DNA of 64,000 nucleotides. Origin: Zetaproteobacteria bacterium CG06_land_8_20_14_3_00_59_53. Its GTDB lineage: Bacteria; Pseudomonadota; Zetaproteobacteria; Mariprofundales; Mariprofundaceae. The translations under genes were made by a program, and so were the position numbers. The notes beneath the pieces are model-generated. The model did no database searches. It was given only the letters and a program-made list of their open reading frames with translations, and was not told the DNA's origin. Position 1 is the first letter of the stretch; the number at the start of each line of letters is the position of its first letter. Positions 57,192 to 63,937 of the stretch are shown piece after piece. The stretch covers positions 80,578-144,577 of the forward strand of contig PEWE01000013.1 of NCBI GenBank assembly GCA_002779605.1, written 5' to 3'.

Positions 57192-57221
57192 CAAGGCCCG
57201 CCTCGAAAGAGGCGGGCCTTG
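57192..57221 (+). terminator. rho-independent terminator after the carbonic anhydrase gene
   Basis: CAAGGCCCGCCTC and GAGGCGGGCCTTG form a 13-bp stem with a GAAA loop. The T-run is weak, but the stem is perfect; it separates carbonic anhydrase from the CRISPR-linked module. Confidence 0.8.
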
Positions 57222-57296
57222 CTCATTTCGGCGGTGACTTCCCTGCGTGTTGCTATATGCTGGACCGGAGCAGTTGCCTGCTTTCAGGGGAGGGGA

Positions 57297-58271
57297 ATGG
57301 ACAAGCTTGAGCGTGCATATCAGTTGGACAAGCTGCTCAAACAGAGGCGAAAGCCTGTCTCGATGCAGGAGCTGTGCGAGCGTTTCGAGTGTTCGGAATC
57401 CACGGTCAAGCGCACCATCACCGAGATGCGTGATCTTCTCAATGCGCCGATCCTGAACAGGGAAAGGGATGGCTATTTCTACAGTAAGAACTCAACATTT
57501 GAGATGCCCGGTGTCTGGTTCTCTGCCGAAGAGCTGCATGCGCTTTTAGCCATGCAGCAGCTCGCCTCCGGACTTTCCGGTGGCTTTTTGGAGAGTGAGT
57601 TTCACCGTCTGCGTGAAAGAATTGAAACCATTTTAAATAAGAGTGTGCCGGCAGCCGCAGGCCAGATGCACCGCATCCGCATGATTGCGGCGGGCAAGCG
57701 CAGCCGCGAGCTCCCCCTGTTTCCTGTCATTGCCACGGCACTGCTTGAGCGTCAGCCGCTTCATATTGCCTACGAGGGCCGGCAGCGCGGCGAGAAGAGC
57801 GCGCGGGATATTTCGCCGCAGCGGCTGGCCCACTATCGTGGCAACTGGTATCTGGATGCGTGGTGCCATGAGAAAGGCGAACTGCGCACCTTCGCCGTGG
57901 AGAGAATCAGCAGCGCAAAGGCCACGGCAGGCAGCTGCGAGGCGCTGGATGAAGCCGTACTGGAGCGGCAGCTGGCGAGCTCATTTGGCATCTTCTCGGG
58001 CGAGCCGACCGCTACGGCCGTGCTGAGGTTCACGGCGAAATCGGCGGCCTGGGTGGCCGATGAGGCGTGGTTTCCGGATGCAACAGGCGAATGGCTGGAG
58101 GATGGCCGTTTTGAATTATGCATCCCGTATAACAATCCCACCGAGCTGATCATGGAGATATGCCGCCACGGCCCGGAGGTGGAGGTGGTTTCTCCACCGG
58201 AATTGAGGGCGCAGGTGGCAGAGCGATTGCGGCAGGCGGTCGATCAATATGCAGGTGAGATCAATATATGA
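57297..58271 (+). CDS. WYL-domain transcriptional regulator of the CRISPR-Cas module
   Basis: 324 residues. N-terminal winged helix (LDKLLKQRRKPVSMQEL, then CSESTVKRTITEMR), a WYL domain near 150-205 with NWYLDAWCHEKGELRTF, and a C-terminal WCX extension. WYL proteins often control CRISPR-Cas and other defence genes and sense nucleotides or DNA ends. ATG 57297 has a GGGGAGGGG site. Its TGA overlaps an ATG at 58268, starting a chain of overlapping frames up to cas1, so it belongs to the same transcript. Confidence 0.88.
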   Translation: MDKLERAYQLDKLLKQRRKPVSMQELCERFECSESTVKRTITEMRDLLNAPILNRERDGYFYSKNSTFEMPGVWFSAEELHALLAMQQLASGLSGGFLESEFHRLRERIETILNKSVPAAAGQMHRIRMIAAGKRSRELPLFPVIATALLERQPLHIAYEGRQRGEKSARDISPQRLAHYRGNWYLDAWCHEKGELRTFAVERISSAKATAGSCEALDEAVLERQLASSFGIFSGEPTATAVLRFTAKSAAWVADEAWFPDATGEWLEDGRFELCIPYNNPTELIMEICRHGPEVEVVSPPELRAQVAERLRQAVDQYAGEINI

Positions 58272-58396: not shown

Positions 58397-58464
58397 TGAA
58401 TCCGCCCGAAGGCAAAAAGCGGCCCATTGGTTTTGTGCATGGGAAGAAGGCGACTAAGGAATGA
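58393..58464 (+). CDS. micro-ORF B overlapping cas1
   Basis: 23 codons from ATG 58393 (a second ATG follows at once), basic and Pro-rich (MMNPPEGKKRPIG, then HGKKATKE). Its start overlaps the stop of micro-ORF A, and its TGA overlaps the cas1 ATG at 58461. No ribosome-binding site of its own, consistent with translational coupling. Family unknown; it could be the displaced end of the same gene as micro-ORF A. Confidence 0.4.
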   Translation: MMNPPEGKKRPIGFVHGKKATKE

Positions 58465-59423
58465 AAGATCTTTCTCCCAGCGATCTGAAAACCATCCTGC
58501 ACTCCAAGCGGGCCAATCTTTATCTGTTGGAGCATTGCCGGGTGATGCAGAAGGATGGGCGAGTTCTCTATCTGACCGAGGCAAAGGCGGAGAAGCAGTA
58601 TTTCAATATTCCAATCGCCAATACGACCGTCATTCTGTTGGGCAACGGTACTTCCATCACTCAGGCTGCGATGCGTATGCTGGCGCAGGCTGGTGTATTG
58701 ATCGGCTTTTGCGGCGGGGGCGGTACGCCGCTTTATATGGGTAATGCGATTGAGTGGATGACGCCGCAAAGCGAATATCGGCCTACTGAATATCTGCAAG
58801 GGTGGCTGGGTTTCTGGTTTGATGATGATCAGCGCTTACGCACAGCAAAAGCGATGCAGCAGGCTCGCATTGATTATTTATGCAAAGTCTGGTCGAAAGA
58901 TCGGGAGCTGAAGCTGGCAGGGTTTGATGCCGCAGATGCCGGTCTTTCCGGAGCGCTGGAGGCATGCCGCAGCAGTGTTGTATCGGCAAGCCAGACAAAT
59001 TATCTGCTGGTTACTGAGGCCAAACTGACCAAACAGCTCTATAAATTTGCGGCAAAGGCAACGAAGATGAGCTCATTTGTTCGGGAGCACGAGGCCGCCG
59101 ATAAAGCCAACGCTTTTCTCAATCATGGCAACTATCTGGCTTATGGCCTTGCCGCGACCACGCTCTGGGTGCTGGGTATTCCGCACGGATTTGCGGTAAT
59201 GCATGGGAAAACGCGCAGGGGTGCATTGGTATTTGATGTGGCAGACCTGATCAAGGATGCGCTGGTATTGCCGTGGGCATTTATTTGCGCCAAAGAGAAC
59301 GCTACAGAGCAGGAGTTTCGCCAGCAGTGTTTGCAGGCGTTTACCGATCACAAGGCGCTGGACTTTATGTTTGATCATGTGAAGGAGCAGGCGCTCAGAG
59401 ACAGGAGCGTGGCTTCGATATGA
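58461..59423 (+). CDS. cas1: CRISPR integrase Cas1, subtype I-F
   Basis: 320 residues, the I-F length. Metal-dependent integrase residues Glu186 (VTEAKLT), His248 (VMHGKTRRG), Asp259 and Asp262 (FDVADLIKDAL) are seen. LSPSDLKTILHSKRANLYLLE opens the I-F type protein (given in part as SPSDLKTIL). It would insert spacers with the Cas2 domain of Cas2-3. AAGGA precedes the ATG; the BRO-N/DinD gene begins 46 bases after its stop. Confidence 0.95.
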   Translation: MKDLSPSDLKTILHSKRANLYLLEHCRVMQKDGRVLYLTEAKAEKQYFNIPIANTTVILLGNGTSITQAAMRMLAQAGVLIGFCGGGGTPLYMGNAIEWMTPQSEYRPTEYLQGWLGFWFDDDQRLRTAKAMQQARIDYLCKVWSKDRELKLAGFDAADAGLSGALEACRSSVVSASQTNYLLVTEAKLTKQLYKFAAKATKMSSFVREHEAADKANAFLNHGNYLAYGLAATTLWVLGIPHGFAVMHGKTRRGALVFDVADLIKDALVLPWAFICAKENATEQEFRQQCLQAFTDHKALDFMFDHVKEQALRDRSVASI

Positions 59424-59469
59424 ATCAGTGGGTTGTCAAAACCAGAATCATTATCAAGGAAAGATGCCA

Positions 59470-60324
59470 ATGAAAACGGATATGACCTTATTTGAGGATT
59501 ACAAAATTCGCCGGATTTATGACGAAGAAGCGGAAATCTGGTGGTTTTCGGTGATTGACATCGTACAGGTGCTAACACAACAATCCGACTACCAAACTGC
59601 CCGCAAATATTGGAATAAACTTAAGCAACGGCTAACCAGAGAAGGTAGTGAGTCGGTGACAAATTGTCACCGACTGAAATTGCGTGCTGCCGATGGTAAA
59701 AACTACCTCACCGACGTTGCCACCGCCGAAACTCTGCTGCGTCTGGTGCAATCCGTACCCAGCTCCAAGGCCGAGCCCATCAAACTCTGGCTGGCCAAAG
59801 TAGGCTACGAACGCATGCAGGAAATGGCCGACCCTTCCCGCTCCCTTGATCGCGCCCGCGCAACCTGGCAAAAGCATGGCCGCAGTGAAAAGTGGATTCA
59901 GCGGCGCATGACCGGGCAGGAAACCCGCAACAAACTCACCGATTACTGGTCTGAACACGACATCAAGCAGGGGGAAGAATTCGCCATCCTCACCAACATC
60001 ATCCACCAGGAATGGGCTGAGGTCGGTATCAGGCAACACAAAGACCTGAAAGGCCTCAAAAGTCAGAACCTGCGTGACCACATGAGTGAAGCCGAACTCA
60101 TCTTCACCGCCCTGGCCGAATTATCCACTCGGCAGATCGCTGAAAGCGTCGATGCGACCGGCATGAATGAAAACACCATAGCGGCAAAATCCGGGGGACG
60201 TATCGCTAATAACGCACGCAAGGAACTGGAAACAAAGACCGGAAGAAAAGTCGTGACCTCTGAAAACTATCTGGCACCAGATAAAAAACCGCGCATCAAG
60301 AATGACAAAGGCAACCCCAAATGA
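59470..60324 (+). CDS. BRO-N/DinD-like protein inside the cas adaptation operon
   Basis: 284 residues. The N-terminal part (about 5-110) matches BRO-N/phage antirepressor domains (IWWFSVIDIVQVL, then ARKYWNKLKQRL and NCHRLKL...YLTDVA). The C-terminal part (about 160-284) resembles DNA-damage-inducible protein D (GLKSQNLRDHMSEAEL, then NARKELETKTGRKVV). ATG 59470 has AGGA upstream; ATG 59464 is close. The stop overlaps the cas2-3 ATG (ATGATGG). It lies exactly where cas1 usually meets cas2-3 and is not a standard cas gene. A DNA-binding or antirepressor role is inferred. Confidence 0.85.
   Translation: MKTDMTLFEDYKIRRIYDEEAEIWWFSVIDIVQVLTQQSDYQTARKYWNKLKQRLTREGSESVTNCHRLKLRAADGKNYLTDVATAETLLRLVQSVPSSKAEPIKLWLAKVGYERMQEMADPSRSLDRARATWQKHGRSEKWIQRRMTGQETRNKLTDYWSEHDIKQGEEFAILTNIIHQEWAEVGIRQHKDLKGLKSQNLRDHMSEAELIFTALAELSTRQIAESVDATGMNENTIAAKSGGRIANNARKELETKTGRKVVTSENYLAPDKKPRIKNDKGNPK
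59651..59675. repeat. perfect palindrome inside the BRO-N/DinD gene
   Basis: AGTCGGTGACAA and TTGTCACCGACT are perfect 12-bp arms around a single A, inside codons for SVTNCHR. The length and perfection suggest an intragenic operator or a structured mRNA segment. Confidence 0.6.
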
Positions 60325-63300
60325 TGGTGACGTTTATCTCCCAGTGCGAAAAGAATGCCCTGAAGAAAACCCGGCGGGTGCTCGATGCCTTTGCTGATCG
60401 TATCGGTGATAACACATGGCAGACAGTGATCACCGAGGATGGCCTGAACACAGTGAAAAAGATGCTGCGCCAGACGGCGAGCAAAAGCACTGCCGTCTCC
60501 TGCCACTGGATCAGGAGCCGTTCGCGCAGCGAGTTGATCTGGGTGGTGGGTAATCGAAGCAGATTTAATGAGCAGGGGATTGTGCCGGTGAATTACACGG
60601 AACAGGAGGTTGAACAATTAAAGGATAAGAACCAATGGAAAACACTGGAAGTCATGCAGTTCGCCGCTGCTATTGCAGGCCTGTTTCACGATATTGGCAA
60701 AGCCAATAAACTGTTTCAGAATAAAATCAATCCAGACATGAAAACCGACGCATTTGAACCGTATCGCCATGAATGGGTTTCTTTCCTATTGTTTCAGGCA
60801 TTCGTGGCGGACAAAAATGATCATCAGTGGCTGGAGGCATTAAGCGAAATAAACCAGGATGCTTTCTCATCCTGCTTTAAAGATGGTTTGGATGGCGCGA
60901 ATAGTCCCAAATTATCTGAGTTGCCAGCTTTTGGTCGCTTGGTGGCATGGCTTATCGTGACACACCACAGATTGCCAATTTATCCCGGATGGAAAGAAAA
61001 TTCCCCTCCGAATTTACAATATTTGGATGAATGGGTTGATAAAAATTTCAATGCTTTGTGGAATTCTTACCGCTGTAATGATGCGGATCAAAAAGAACGG
61101 ATAGATGAAAACTGGGTGTTTGCGGCACTGCCTTCACAAAGCATGCAATGGCGCTCCAAAGCTTGTATGTTGGCTTCTGAAGCATTGCCCAGACTGAATA
61201 CTTGGCTGAGTTCAGATGAGGACTGGTTACATGAACAGCTTTATACCAGCCACTTGTCCCGTCTTAGTTTGATTTTGGCTGATCACTATTATTCTTCTCA
61301 GGATGAAGTTACCCAAGAATGGAGAAATCCACATTACAGGGTTTATGCCAACACGCAGTGGGTTGATGGCAAACAACAATACAAACAACAGTTGGATGAA
61401 CATCTGATCGGTGTGGCGCAGCATGCAATGAAAATCACTCGGGCTTTGCCCCGTTTGAATGACAGCCTTGAAACACTTGATCCAAACAGCGCGTTGACCA
61501 AAAACGTACCAAAAGAACTAAAAGAGCATTTTGGTTGGCAGGACAAGGCGAGGAAGCTGGCTGAGAAAGTTGGTAAGGGAACTCTGAGTTACGGCTTTTT
61601 TGGTGTTAATATGGCTTCAACAGGCATGGGGAAAACCCGAGCCAATGCCAAGATTATGACTGCAATAGGACGACAAACCGGACGTGTGCGATTTAGCGTG
61701 GCTTTGGGGCTTCGTGTGCTCACCTTACAAACAGGTAAAGAATTTCAGGACGAACTCAAGCTTTCTGACGAAGAACTCGCAATTGCTGTTGGTGGAACTG
61801 CAATCAAACAGCTTTTTGAAAATCAGCAACTCCATAGAACCCAGGGGAAGGCAGGCGAAAAAACGCCAGTGGAAGATATGGGGAGTGAATCACAGGAGGG
61901 GTTGCTCGATCCGGATTTGTATGTTCACTACAAGGGCGGATTGGAAGAACACAGTCTGAGCTGTTGGACAAAGAAAGAAAATGGTCTGGATAAGATACTG
62001 CTGGCGCCTGTTTTGGTTAGCACGATTGATCACCTGATGCCCGCAACTGAAGGTACAAAAGGCGGAAAACAGATTCCTGCCACCTTACGTTTATTGACCT
62101 CTGACCTGGTATTGGATGAGCCCGATGACTTCGGATTGGATGATTTGCCTGCATTGTGCCGTCTGGTGCATTGGGCGGGTATGCTTGGCAGCCGCGTACT
62201 TCTTTCCACCGCAACCATTCCACCCGCTTTAACTTATGCACTGTTTCAGGCTTATCAGTCTGGATGGTCGCAATATGCAAAAGCGAATATTGAAGGATGG
62301 TCGGGTGAAATTACCTGTGCGTGGTTCGATGAATGGGAGAGCGATAGTAGCTTATGCAACACATTGGATGGATTTAGAAAAACGCACGAAGGATTTGTGC
62401 AAAAACGCATCAAGCATTTACAGATCTTGCCAGCAAAGCGCATGGCTGAGATTATCAGGTTAGGTCGGGAAGATAATAAAACTATCGCGGAAAGCATGGC
62501 GATTAGCATCCGAAATGGAGCGACACGCTTGCATCAGGATCATTGTCTTCACCATGAGGGAATAACGCTCTCCATCGGTTTGCTACGTATGGCCAACATC
62601 AACCCTCTAATTGCAGTTTCAAGAGCACTTTTAAAACTGGATGCGCCAGAAAGAACCTGCATTCACTATTGTATTTACCATAGTCGTTATCCGCTTGCGA
62701 TACGTTCATCTATTGAAAACAAACTGGACAGATTGCTAAATCGAAAACACCCGAGTGCCGTCTGGCAAGAGCCTGAAATCCGGCAAGCCATACAGAAGCA
62801 CCCTGAAATCCAACATCACATTTTTATTGTGTTGGCATCCCCTGTGGCAGAGGTCGGGAGGGATCACGACTACGACTGGGCCATTGTTGAGCCCAGTTCG
62901 ATGCGTTCTGTCATTCAGCTTGCAGGCCGGGTATTAAGGCACAGGAATCAGATCCCCGATAAAGCCAACATCCTGCTATTAAATAAAAATTACAAGGCAC
63001 TTGCGAATAAAATGGTGTGCTTTGAGCGTCCGGGATTTGAATCGACAAACCTAGTGATGAAATCACACGATTTGTTTGATGTTCTGGGTGATGAGCAATA
63101 TAAACAGATTACGGCAATTCAGAGAATCGCTCTACCTGCATCATATCGAACCAATGCAAATGGAGAATATGAGAATCTGATTGAGCTTGAGCATAAGGCA
63201 TTGAAAGAAAAGTTATTCAACAAAGATACGGGAGCAGGGCTGTGGTGGGAAAAACATCCGCATTGGTGCGGTGAAGTGCAACGGCAACAACGCTTCCGTG

Positions 63301-63638
63301 ATTCAAATAAGGATGAAGCCTATTTCCTTTGGCTGGATGATGCGTTTACTACCCCAAAATGGAAATGGAAGAATGAGGAAGTTTCACCGCCAGAGTTTGG
63401 TGATCCTTCGGTCAGTTTTAATGCTGTTGAAATGGATGAATTTGGAGAAGGTGTGAGCTTCTGGTTTGAGCAGGATGCTTTGACGGTTTATCAGCAACTG
63501 GCTGATGATTTTGGAATTGAATTGAAAGAAGTCAGTCGCCGTTTTGGCGAGGTTCGGCTAACGGAGTTTAGCAATGAAGCTCAGGAATACAGTTATCATC
63601 CGAGCTTAGGAATTTATCAGGAGATTGGGAGAGATTAA
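60321..63638 (+). CDS. cas3: Cas2-Cas3 fusion nuclease-helicase, subtype I-F
   Basis: 1105 residues. Cas2 domain about 1-95 (MMVTFISQCEKNALKKTRRV region), then HD nuclease with His123-Asp124 (LFHDIGKANK) and His150, and the superfamily 2 helicase: Walker A TGMGKT with Lys438, a motif II DEPDD near 599-603, STATIPP (motif III), and EVGRDHDYDWAI to QLAGRVLRHR (motifs V-VI). It forms the I-F adaptation complex with Cas1 and degrades target DNA after Csy recruitment. The start overlaps the DinD-like stop. The 3' half is A+T-rich. Confidence 0.94.
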   Translation: MMVTFISQCEKNALKKTRRVLDAFADRIGDNTWQTVITEDGLNTVKKMLRQTASKSTAVSCHWIRSRSRSELIWVVGNRSRFNEQGIVPVNYTEQEVEQLKDKNQWKTLEVMQFAAAIAGLFHDIGKANKLFQNKINPDMKTDAFEPYRHEWVSFLLFQAFVADKNDHQWLEALSEINQDAFSSCFKDGLDGANSPKLSELPAFGRLVAWLIVTHHRLPIYPGWKENSPPNLQYLDEWVDKNFNALWNSYRCNDADQKERIDENWVFAALPSQSMQWRSKACMLASEALPRLNTWLSSDEDWLHEQLYTSHLSRLSLILADHYYSSQDEVTQEWRNPHYRVYANTQWVDGKQQYKQQLDEHLIGVAQHAMKITRALPRLNDSLETLDPNSALTKNVPKELKEHFGWQDKARKLAEKVGKGTLSYGFFGVNMASTGMGKTRANAKIMTAIGRQTGRVRFSVALGLRVLTLQTGKEFQDELKLSDEELAIAVGGTAIKQLFENQQLHRTQGKAGEKTPVEDMGSESQEGLLDPDLYVHYKGGLEEHSLSCWTKKENGLDKILLAPVLVSTIDHLMPATEGTKGGKQIPATLRLLTSDLVLDEPDDFGLDDLPALCRLVHWAGMLGSRVLLSTATIPPALTYALFQAYQSGWSQYAKANIEGWSGEITCAWFDEWESDSSLCNTLDGFRKTHEGFVQKRIKHLQILPAKRMAEIIRLGREDNKTIAESMAISIRNGATRLHQDHCLHHEGITLSIGLLRMANINPLIAVSRALLKLDAPERTCIHYCIYHSRYPLAIRSSIENKLDRLLNRKHPSAVWQEPEIRQAIQKHPEIQHHIFIVLASPVAEVGRDHDYDWAIVEPSSMRSVIQLAGRVLRHRNQIPDKANILLLNKNYKALANKMVCFERPGFESTNLVMKSHDLFDVLGDEQYKQITAIQRIALPASYRTNANGEYENLIELEHKALKEKLFNKDTGAGLWWEKHPHWCGEVQRQQRFRDSNKDEAYFLWLDDAFTTPKWKWKNEEVSPPEFGDPSVSFNAVEMDEFGEGVSFWFEQDALTVYQQLADDFGIELKEVSRRFGEVRLTEFSNEAQEYSYHPSLGIYQEIGRD

Positions 63639-63937
63639 TGAGTGAAGAAACCAAGAAGCTTGAGACATGGAATGAAGTGATTATTCATTTCTTCGAGTAC
63701 AAAGTGGCGACATCTAAGCTCTATAAGGCAAGAGAGTATATCGAAGCAAAAGATAAGGACATAGTATCTGAGAAAGAGGCAAAGAAGATTGAACGCCTAA
63801 TAAAAGCAAAGGAAAAGAAACAGCTGGAGTTAGAGCAATTAAGAAAAGATGCGCCATCTACTGAAATTAGGCAGTGGATTGAGAAAACAGCGGACACAAA
63901 AATCTCCGAAGGAAAGAGCGACGTCACCCCATCTTGA
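63638..63937 (+). CDS. 99-residue coiled-coil protein coupled to cas2-3
   Basis: Starts at ATG 63638, sharing the last A of the cas2-3 TAA (TAATG). Lys/Glu-rich helices dominate (LIKAKEKKQLELEQLRK), with an aromatic N-terminal segment (WNEVIIHFFEYKVATSKLY). No recognised Cas family; the csy1/cas8f expected next in I-F does not look like this. By hand 63661-63720 has 23 G+C of 60. It may be an accessory or anti-defence-linked subunit; function unknown. Confidence 0.7.
   Translation: MSEETKKLETWNEVIIHFFEYKVATSKLYKAREYIEAKDKDIVSEKEAKKIERLIKAKEKKQLELEQLRKDAPSTEIRQWIEKTADTKISEGKSDVTPS

Follow-up and report, generated by a model that had tools for sequence, protein, structure and literature searches.

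What does a gene do that sits between cas1 and cas2-3 within a type I-F clustered regularly interspaced short palindromic repeats (CRISPR) system? The gene lies in contig PEWE01000013.1 of Zetaproteobacteria bacterium CG06_land_8_20_14_3_00_59_53, in a stretch of 64,000 nucleotides that we call the window, and is present once in the genome. A first-pass annotation had placed a 284-residue protein at this site, overlapping cas2-3 by ATGA, and the coordinates confirm it: the open reading frame (ORF) runs from an ATG to a stop with the ATG of cas2-3 inside its end (Table 1), and a GTG at 59428 offers an alternative, longer start. The predicted fold of this protein resembles that of the DNA-repair protein DdrC, so that it may grip the breaks made by CRISPR and restriction defences.

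A PDC-S13 protein with a predicted DdrC-like fold

The inserted protein matches the PADLOC family PDC-S13 over its full length (residues 3-275 on profile positions 5-274 of 286) as well as PHROG 15286 (Table 1), and is thus a member of an already listed candidate family and does not form a separate kind of Cas protein. Its antirepressor-type N-terminal domain, as first annotated, was recovered as Bro-N, above the curated Pfam cut-off of 25.6 bits. The DinD-like C-terminal domain that had been proposed alongside it was retained in a weaker form. More specifically, profile-profile comparison with the DinD family (21% identity over 103 columns; Table 1) places the C-terminal region in the DinD superfamily in a wide sense, as a remote relative, but the NCBIfam DinD model NF008573, which requires 242 bits and gives 488 bits for K-12 DinD as a positive control, did not match the inserted protein at E <= 1. 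Pfam and NCBIfam family scans revealed no toxin domain in the protein, whether nuclease, Fic, RelE-like or another.

DdrC, a DNA-protecting repair protein of Deinococcus, was the only strong full-length match in the PDB for the predicted structure of the inserted protein, and the model has the same two-domain fold as DdrC. The model of E. coli DinD (L145), itself of low confidence, also ranked DdrC first (E 5.7e-3), suggesting that DinD may share this fold. Named fold matches in BFVD were largely KilA-N, BRO and repressor-domain proteins. DinD is an antagonist of RecA, and baculovirus BRO proteins bind DNA.

A break-binding-like fold of this kind would suggest a link to DNA damage other than through SOS control. 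The damage-responsive switch put forward in the first-pass annotation was not supported in the SOS sense: by a home-made score applied to the 200 bases upstream of each gene (not of each operon), LexA-like sites were no commoner in the family than upstream of other ORFs, either at a threshold of 20 (3/81 vs 17/778) or at the lower threshold of 16 (9/81 vs 88/778), and the best score in the window, 14.5, lay under both. This lack of enrichment speaks against an SOS switch. A LexA-like CTG-N10-CAG site does lie 47 bases upstream in L053 and L066, both of them relatives that have no labelled neighbour.

Relatives lie in both CRISPR and restriction-modification operons

To describe genomic contexts, we used the window and the best 80 of 478 relatives in species genomes (n = 81), which are near relatives with 73% identity and up, the majority of them on contigs of metagenome-assembled genomes, where binning or assembly errors are possible. 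Neighbours were labelled by hidden Markov models built on neighbour clusters, mostly named through a representative and otherwise by operon position. CRISPR contexts accounted for 24 of the 81 genes: 7 type I-F, 14 type I-C and 3 in which a cas1f or cas2-3 piece stands beside the genes of another effector (L004 and L012, with a broken cas2-3 start, and L021, where PADLOC Cas3e is the best match for the downstream Cas3). A further 23 lie in restriction-modification (RM) operons, 21 of type I and 2 of type III, the latter between mod and res. These RM relatives show 74-84% identity, and such operons take up no spacers. The 80 relatives belong to ten named phyla, with 55 in Pseudomonadota and 3 without a named phylum. 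Relatives at 80-85% identity also occur in Marinomonas isolates. Relatives between cas1 and the start of cas2-3 occur in Gammaproteobacteria, Betaproteobacteria and Myxococcia, showing that the arrangement is neither confined to one strain nor a matter of chance.

Within the CRISPR loci, the next recognised downstream cas gene serves adaptation in 22 of 24 cases: cas2-3 in 9, including the window, cas4 in 8 and cas1 in 5. Among these 22, an ORF6N gene intervenes in L015 and about 700 bases intervene in L004 and L036. The two exceptions are L019, where the gene precedes cas3, and L024, where it follows cas6f.

The remaining genes, termed "other", lack any labelled same-strand gene within 3.5 kb, a definition under which a defence gene may still be present. 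Neighbours were scanned at 22 of these 34 loci, and PDC-M11A (L030), a GajB-like helicase on the opposite strand (L013) and PDC-S13 paralogues (L011, L017) were among them. The scan gave no PADLOC hit or defence family at L043, L044, L045, L048, L052, L058, L061, L064, L070, L071, L076 and L078. Genes of the bro family stand in tandem in L011, L017 and L028; those of L011 and L017 also match the first ~265 of 717 positions of a PADLOC type I specificity model, which suggests bro-HsdS fusions.

RhuM-type genes, recognised by clustering or BLAST, share the operon with the bro gene in four I-C loci (L009, L014, L016, L029) and three RM loci (L008, L047, L074); PADLOC names those of L009 and L074 PDC-S05 and PDC-S23, respectively, the latter with Fic.

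We also searched phage and plasmid records. Relatives were found in just 4 of 50,697 phage records, with a best identity of 50% and all on unannotated human-faeces contigs of 4.8-7.1 kb, and in just 13 of 72,556 plasmid records. On this scarcity, a phage or plasmid origin was rejected. No DdrC was found on plasmids.

The family is under strong purifying selection and its subfamilies tend to follow the host system

The ratio of nonsynonymous to synonymous substitution rates (dN/dS) between the window gene and its counterpart in L003 is about 0.09 (0.047/0.507). Across all 296 retained pairs, which are not independent of each other, dN/dS was 0.03-0.16; rows bearing stops (L027, L075, L081), pairs whose identity by unaligned letter count was below 82% and those with a dS outside 0.1-1.5 had been excluded. 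Medians were 0.076 within CRISPR/RM operons (102 pairs), 0.077 among "other" rows (48) and 0.082 for mixed pairs (146). Since "other" copies are equally constrained, the protein would also work without a CRISPR or RM neighbour; this inference of function outside CRISPR/RM is weak because some "other" rows adjoin further defence-like genes. Together with full-length neighbours and the recurrence between cas1 and the cas2-3 start in other classes, the low ratio against L003 supports the first impression that the insertion is maintained, not disruptive.

A quick tree was made of all 81 proteins, with 38 of 78 inner branches open. In this tree, the distinction between CRISPR and RM (47 rows) required 2 changes, against a mean of 15.9 after shuffling, and none of 200 shuffles was as low; near copies and common hosts may inflate this clustering. 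In the same tree, cas1f-type and I-C contexts were separated by 5 changes, and an all-CRISPR clade of 14 rows, with I-F and I-C mixed, had a Shimodaira-Hasegawa-like approximate likelihood ratio test support of 91, under the 95 mark. The association between subfamily and system suggests a fitting of the protein to the system.

The cas1|cas2-3 junction looks like an insertion hot spot

How usual is an insertion at this site? From the 398 phylum genomes we took the best 30 cas1f loci; 11 of these loci, together with L108, were also obtained from 78 genomes of the class. We counted the 29 that reach the end of cas1, setting aside L108, which stops short within cas1, as well as L109-L117, which are partial matches. 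In line with the standard order assumed in the first-pass annotation, cas1 directly adjoins cas2-3 in 25 of 29 loci, with a 4-nt overlap in 21 of those 25. A PDC-S13 gene follows cas1 in two (the window and L099), and toxin-antitoxin-like genes follow it in the other two (L101, by Pfam, and L105, by likeness, where the stretch ends before cas2-3). L098, whose Cas1 is 84% identical to that of the window, is an empty site. The family as a whole was present in 15 of the 78 class genomes and 22 of the 398 phylum genomes, part of these matches being partial. As the gene occupies only 2 of 29 loci and it is now this gene that overlaps cas2-3, it is a rare insertion that has taken over the cas2-3 overlap.

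The closest view of the junction came from comparison with L003. DNA identity between the two loci is 85-96% in 100-base bins from 59719 to ~60618, a stretch that takes in the Cas2 domain and all but the N-terminal third of the gene and is probably a recombination tract. Outside it, identity is 54-88% in cas1 and, over the remainder of cas2-3, 44-70%. In L003 the gene ahead of the bro gene is a KilA-N gene (Pfam 2.1e-9), and the 46-base gap after cas1 in the window resembles the end of it (37/43 bases identical, the last six inside the bro gene); no shuffle out of 2000 reached the score of the alignment restricted to the gap. The gap is possibly a relic of a KilA-N gene, or might merely be leader sequence travelling with the bro gene. 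After cas1 and ahead of the intact bro gene, L003 carries (L003:7573-8000) a likely relic of a bro start, identified by eye (32/45 bases in one aligned stretch), followed by the KilA-N gene.

Relics of the cas2-3 start stand beside the insert in L025 (256/293 bases), L004 (40/43) and L101 (48/53), and the junction of L015 holds an ORF6N gene as well. Taken with the KilA-N, ORF6N and toxin-antitoxin occupants, these relic starts give the cas1|cas2-3 junction the look of a hot spot, with inserts that would terminate at the cas2-3 start. No mobile unit with conserved ends was found in these comparisons, in which the 45 bases upstream, judged by eye, were similar within some groups and not across contexts.

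Two further arrangements were observed. In L101 (2466-3583) and L105, the genes after cas1 are Phd/YefM- and ParE-like (Pfam in L101), and next to them come a relic cas2-3 start joined with part of cas1 and a small ORF labelled CopG-like by eye, with no Pfam match. In L004 and L012, cas1f and the bro gene are followed by broken cas2-3 starts and then by I-C effector genes, which are traces of I-F/I-C exchange; a working hybrid of cas1f with the I-C effector is ruled out, as the cas2-3 pieces are broken.

A putative binder of DNA breaks and its alternatives

The reading that we favour, tentatively and with less than even confidence, is that the PDC-S13 protein is a stand-alone DNA-break binder, gripping nicks or ends cut by the nuclease encoded next to it, and not a dedicated spacer-acquisition factor. 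In the window, the ATGA overlap would couple translation of the inserted gene to that of cas2-3, and the protein would be made together with Cas2-3. By binding, bridging or capping the ends of cut invader DNA, it would withhold them from RecBCD/RecA rescue, or else it would stop self-cuts from spreading. In CRISPR operons, Cas3 products might in this manner be held near Cas1-Cas2, and assembly of the Cas or Hsd complexes would proceed without need for the inserted protein. A more far-reaching proposal, which we regard as a long shot, makes the DdrC-like, break-binding protein a third component in a mobile cas1-X-cas2 adaptation cassette, where it would catch Cas3-made ends and pass them to Cas1-Cas2, with sister subfamilies holding cut ends for restriction enzymes, as a general "break clamp" of DNA-cutting defences.

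Several points weigh against a break binder. No sequence link to DdrC was found, profile A2 retrieving no PDB sequence at E <= 10; the fold match is not calibrated against other Bro-N proteins; and similarity between predicted folds would not equal similarity of function. Moreover, 34 of the 81 genes have no labelled CRISPR or RM gene alongside, and one of these "other" relatives (L069) has a TIR-like gene beside it. The co-resident RhuM-type, RhuM-Fic and toxin-antitoxin genes are compatible with an independent effector. Concerning the window operon itself, Cas7f of L003 used as a query gave no match in the assembly and matched 5 of 8 other genomes; Cas7f of L020 matched 0 of 7 genomes and a Cas6f query 0 of 1, neither having a positive control; of the Cascade genes cas8f, cas5f, cas7f and cas6f, these searches covered the last two. 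With Cas7f and Cas6f not found and the contig ending at the window edge, the window operon may not interfere at all.

An independent antiviral effector, a toxin-like gene that rides in the operon and acts as a second line when the host system is inhibited or failing, is the alternative that survives best, and we hold it to be unlikely but worth serious weight. The family is already among the PADLOC candidates, and copies without a labelled CRISPR/RM neighbour are equally constrained. Other operon guests point the same way: the RhuM-Fic gene of RM locus L074, the RhuM-type genes that precede cas4 in the four I-C loci mentioned above (only the RhuM part being matched) and, at the L101 junction of cas1 with cas2-3, genes of Phd/YefM and ParE type. 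What argues against such an effector is that the protein has no recognised toxin domain, that the ORF list and family scans show no antitoxin-like gene adjoining it in the window, and that its predicted fold would indicate DNA binding.

It is improbable that the protein regulates transcription of its own operon in the style of a phage antirepressor. Bro-N is known from repressors and antirepressors of viruses, and the named BFVD matches are largely KilA-N, BRO and repressor-domain proteins, but the family is nearly absent from phages, its relatives in RM operons are 74-84% identical, and a WYL regulator is already present upstream; in addition, an operon's own regulator is rarely placed mid-operon.

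The dedicated spacer-acquisition factor of the first-pass annotation, working with Cas1-Cas2, was weakened to a similarly doubtful standing. The position of the gene ahead of adaptation genes (22/24 CRISPR loci), the separation of CRISPR from RM subfamilies and the probable recombination tract common to the gene and the Cas2 domain all speak for it; against these stand the close relatives in RM operons, which lack adaptation, the equal constraint on copies outside CRISPR and the 25 of 29 I-F loci with nothing between cas1 and cas2-3. As a sole role, spacer acquisition is countered by the type I and type III RM relatives and by the constrained non-CRISPR copies.

Least probable of all is that the gene is cargo, of no benefit to its operon and spread by recombination where starts and stops overlap. 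The relic cas2-3 starts (L025, L004, L101) and the likely bro relic and KilA-N gene of L003 could be quoted for this, against low dN/dS in all 296 pairs and the strong link between subfamily and system class.

Relation to known systems

The PADLOC entry PDC-S13, a candidate anti-phage family, carries no description in the library; what is added here is a CRISPR clade placed before adaptation genes and the possible DdrC/DinD link, and these two are the most interesting parts of the analysis. Compared with E. coli DinD, the inserted protein shares the N-terminal Bro-N, the remote C-terminal similarity and largely the same order of predicted secondary structure; it differs in leaving NF008573 unmatched, in its location in a defence operon and in belonging to a family without enrichment of LexA-like sites. 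DdrC of Deinococcus radiodurans is alike in predicted fold, with no sequence similarity found; it is damage-induced, with homologues reported from Deinococcaceae only (PMC5436757), unlike the PDC-S13 family.

Genes embedded in defence operons are reportedly described in a 2024 preprint by Payne et al. TgvAB lies inside a type I RM cluster (PMC11411939), and the present case is similar in being a separate gene within a multi-gene defence operon; it differs in its site, the type I-F cas1|cas2-3 junction, and in that the inserted gene is not known to have antiviral activity. RhuM-type (PDC-S05/PDC-S23), KilA-N and ORF6N genes have antirepressor-type N-domains and occur in the same kinds of operon, and KilA-N (L003) and ORF6N (L015) genes share the junction with PDC-S13 genes, from which all three types differ in family and C-terminal part (Fic in L074). 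No paper on a PDC-S13 gene between cas1 and cas2-3 was found in a search that left most subscription journals and bioRxiv outside, so that one may exist.

PDC-S13 touches an open question, namely how invader DNA is handled after cutting and how ends pass between Cas3 and Cas1-Cas2. A small, strongly conserved gene in type I-F and I-C CRISPR and in type I and III RM operons, with a DdrC-like model, makes a shared step "after the cut" testable, and the cas1|cas2-3 junction is flagged as an insertion hot spot.

Layout of the locus

Table 1. Features around the inserted gene (positions in the window).
Feature	Position	Strand	Evidence
HTH (helix-turn-helix)-WYL-WCX regulator, upstream of cas1	57219..58271	+	Pfam WYL 1.3e-21, WCX 1.2e-16
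cas1 (type I-F)	58461..59423	+	TIGR03637 469.5 bits; PADLOC Cas1fv 587.9 bits
Gap between cas1 and inserted gene, 46 bases	59424..59469	+	Resembles 3' end of L003 KilA-N gene
Bro-N/DinD-like gene, PDC-S13 family, 284 aa	59470..60324	+	PADLOC PDC-S13 E 9.8e-119; phrog_15286 E 2.9e-88
Bro-N domain, residues 13-110	59506..59799	+	Pfam PF02498 30.4 bits; model: strands and helices
Tract with 85-96% DNA identity to L003 per 100-base bin, probable recombination tract	59719..60618	not assigned	Binned DNA comparison
DinD-like all-helical C-terminal region, residues 154-259	59929..60246	+	hhalign vs DinD family E 1.4e-5, probability 80%; model: helices
ATGA overlap of inserted gene and cas2-3, replacing the usual cas1/cas2-3 overlap	60321..60324	+	ORF coordinates; cas1f locus comparison
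cas2-3 (type I-F)	60321..63638	+	TIGR02562 1096.8 bits; Cas2 domain PF21384 at residues 1-79
99-aa ORF beginning at the cas2-3 stop, no confident family	63638..63937	+	ORF list; family scans

Both neighbours of the inserted gene, described as intact from their motifs, match type I-F models over nearly their entire length, so that cas1f and cas2-3 are both present at full length in the window: Cas1 is covered by TIGR03637 (cut-off 150) over residues 12-311 of 320, with the PADLOC Cas1fv model scoring higher still, and Cas2-3 by TIGR02562 (cut-off 566) over residues 1-1099 of 1105. The contig ends 63 bases past the 99-aa ORF, and in L003 this spot after cas2-3 is taken by cas8f. A relative of the WYL regulator lies upstream of cas1 in L003, L004, L015 and L020; in L019, one precedes the bro gene.
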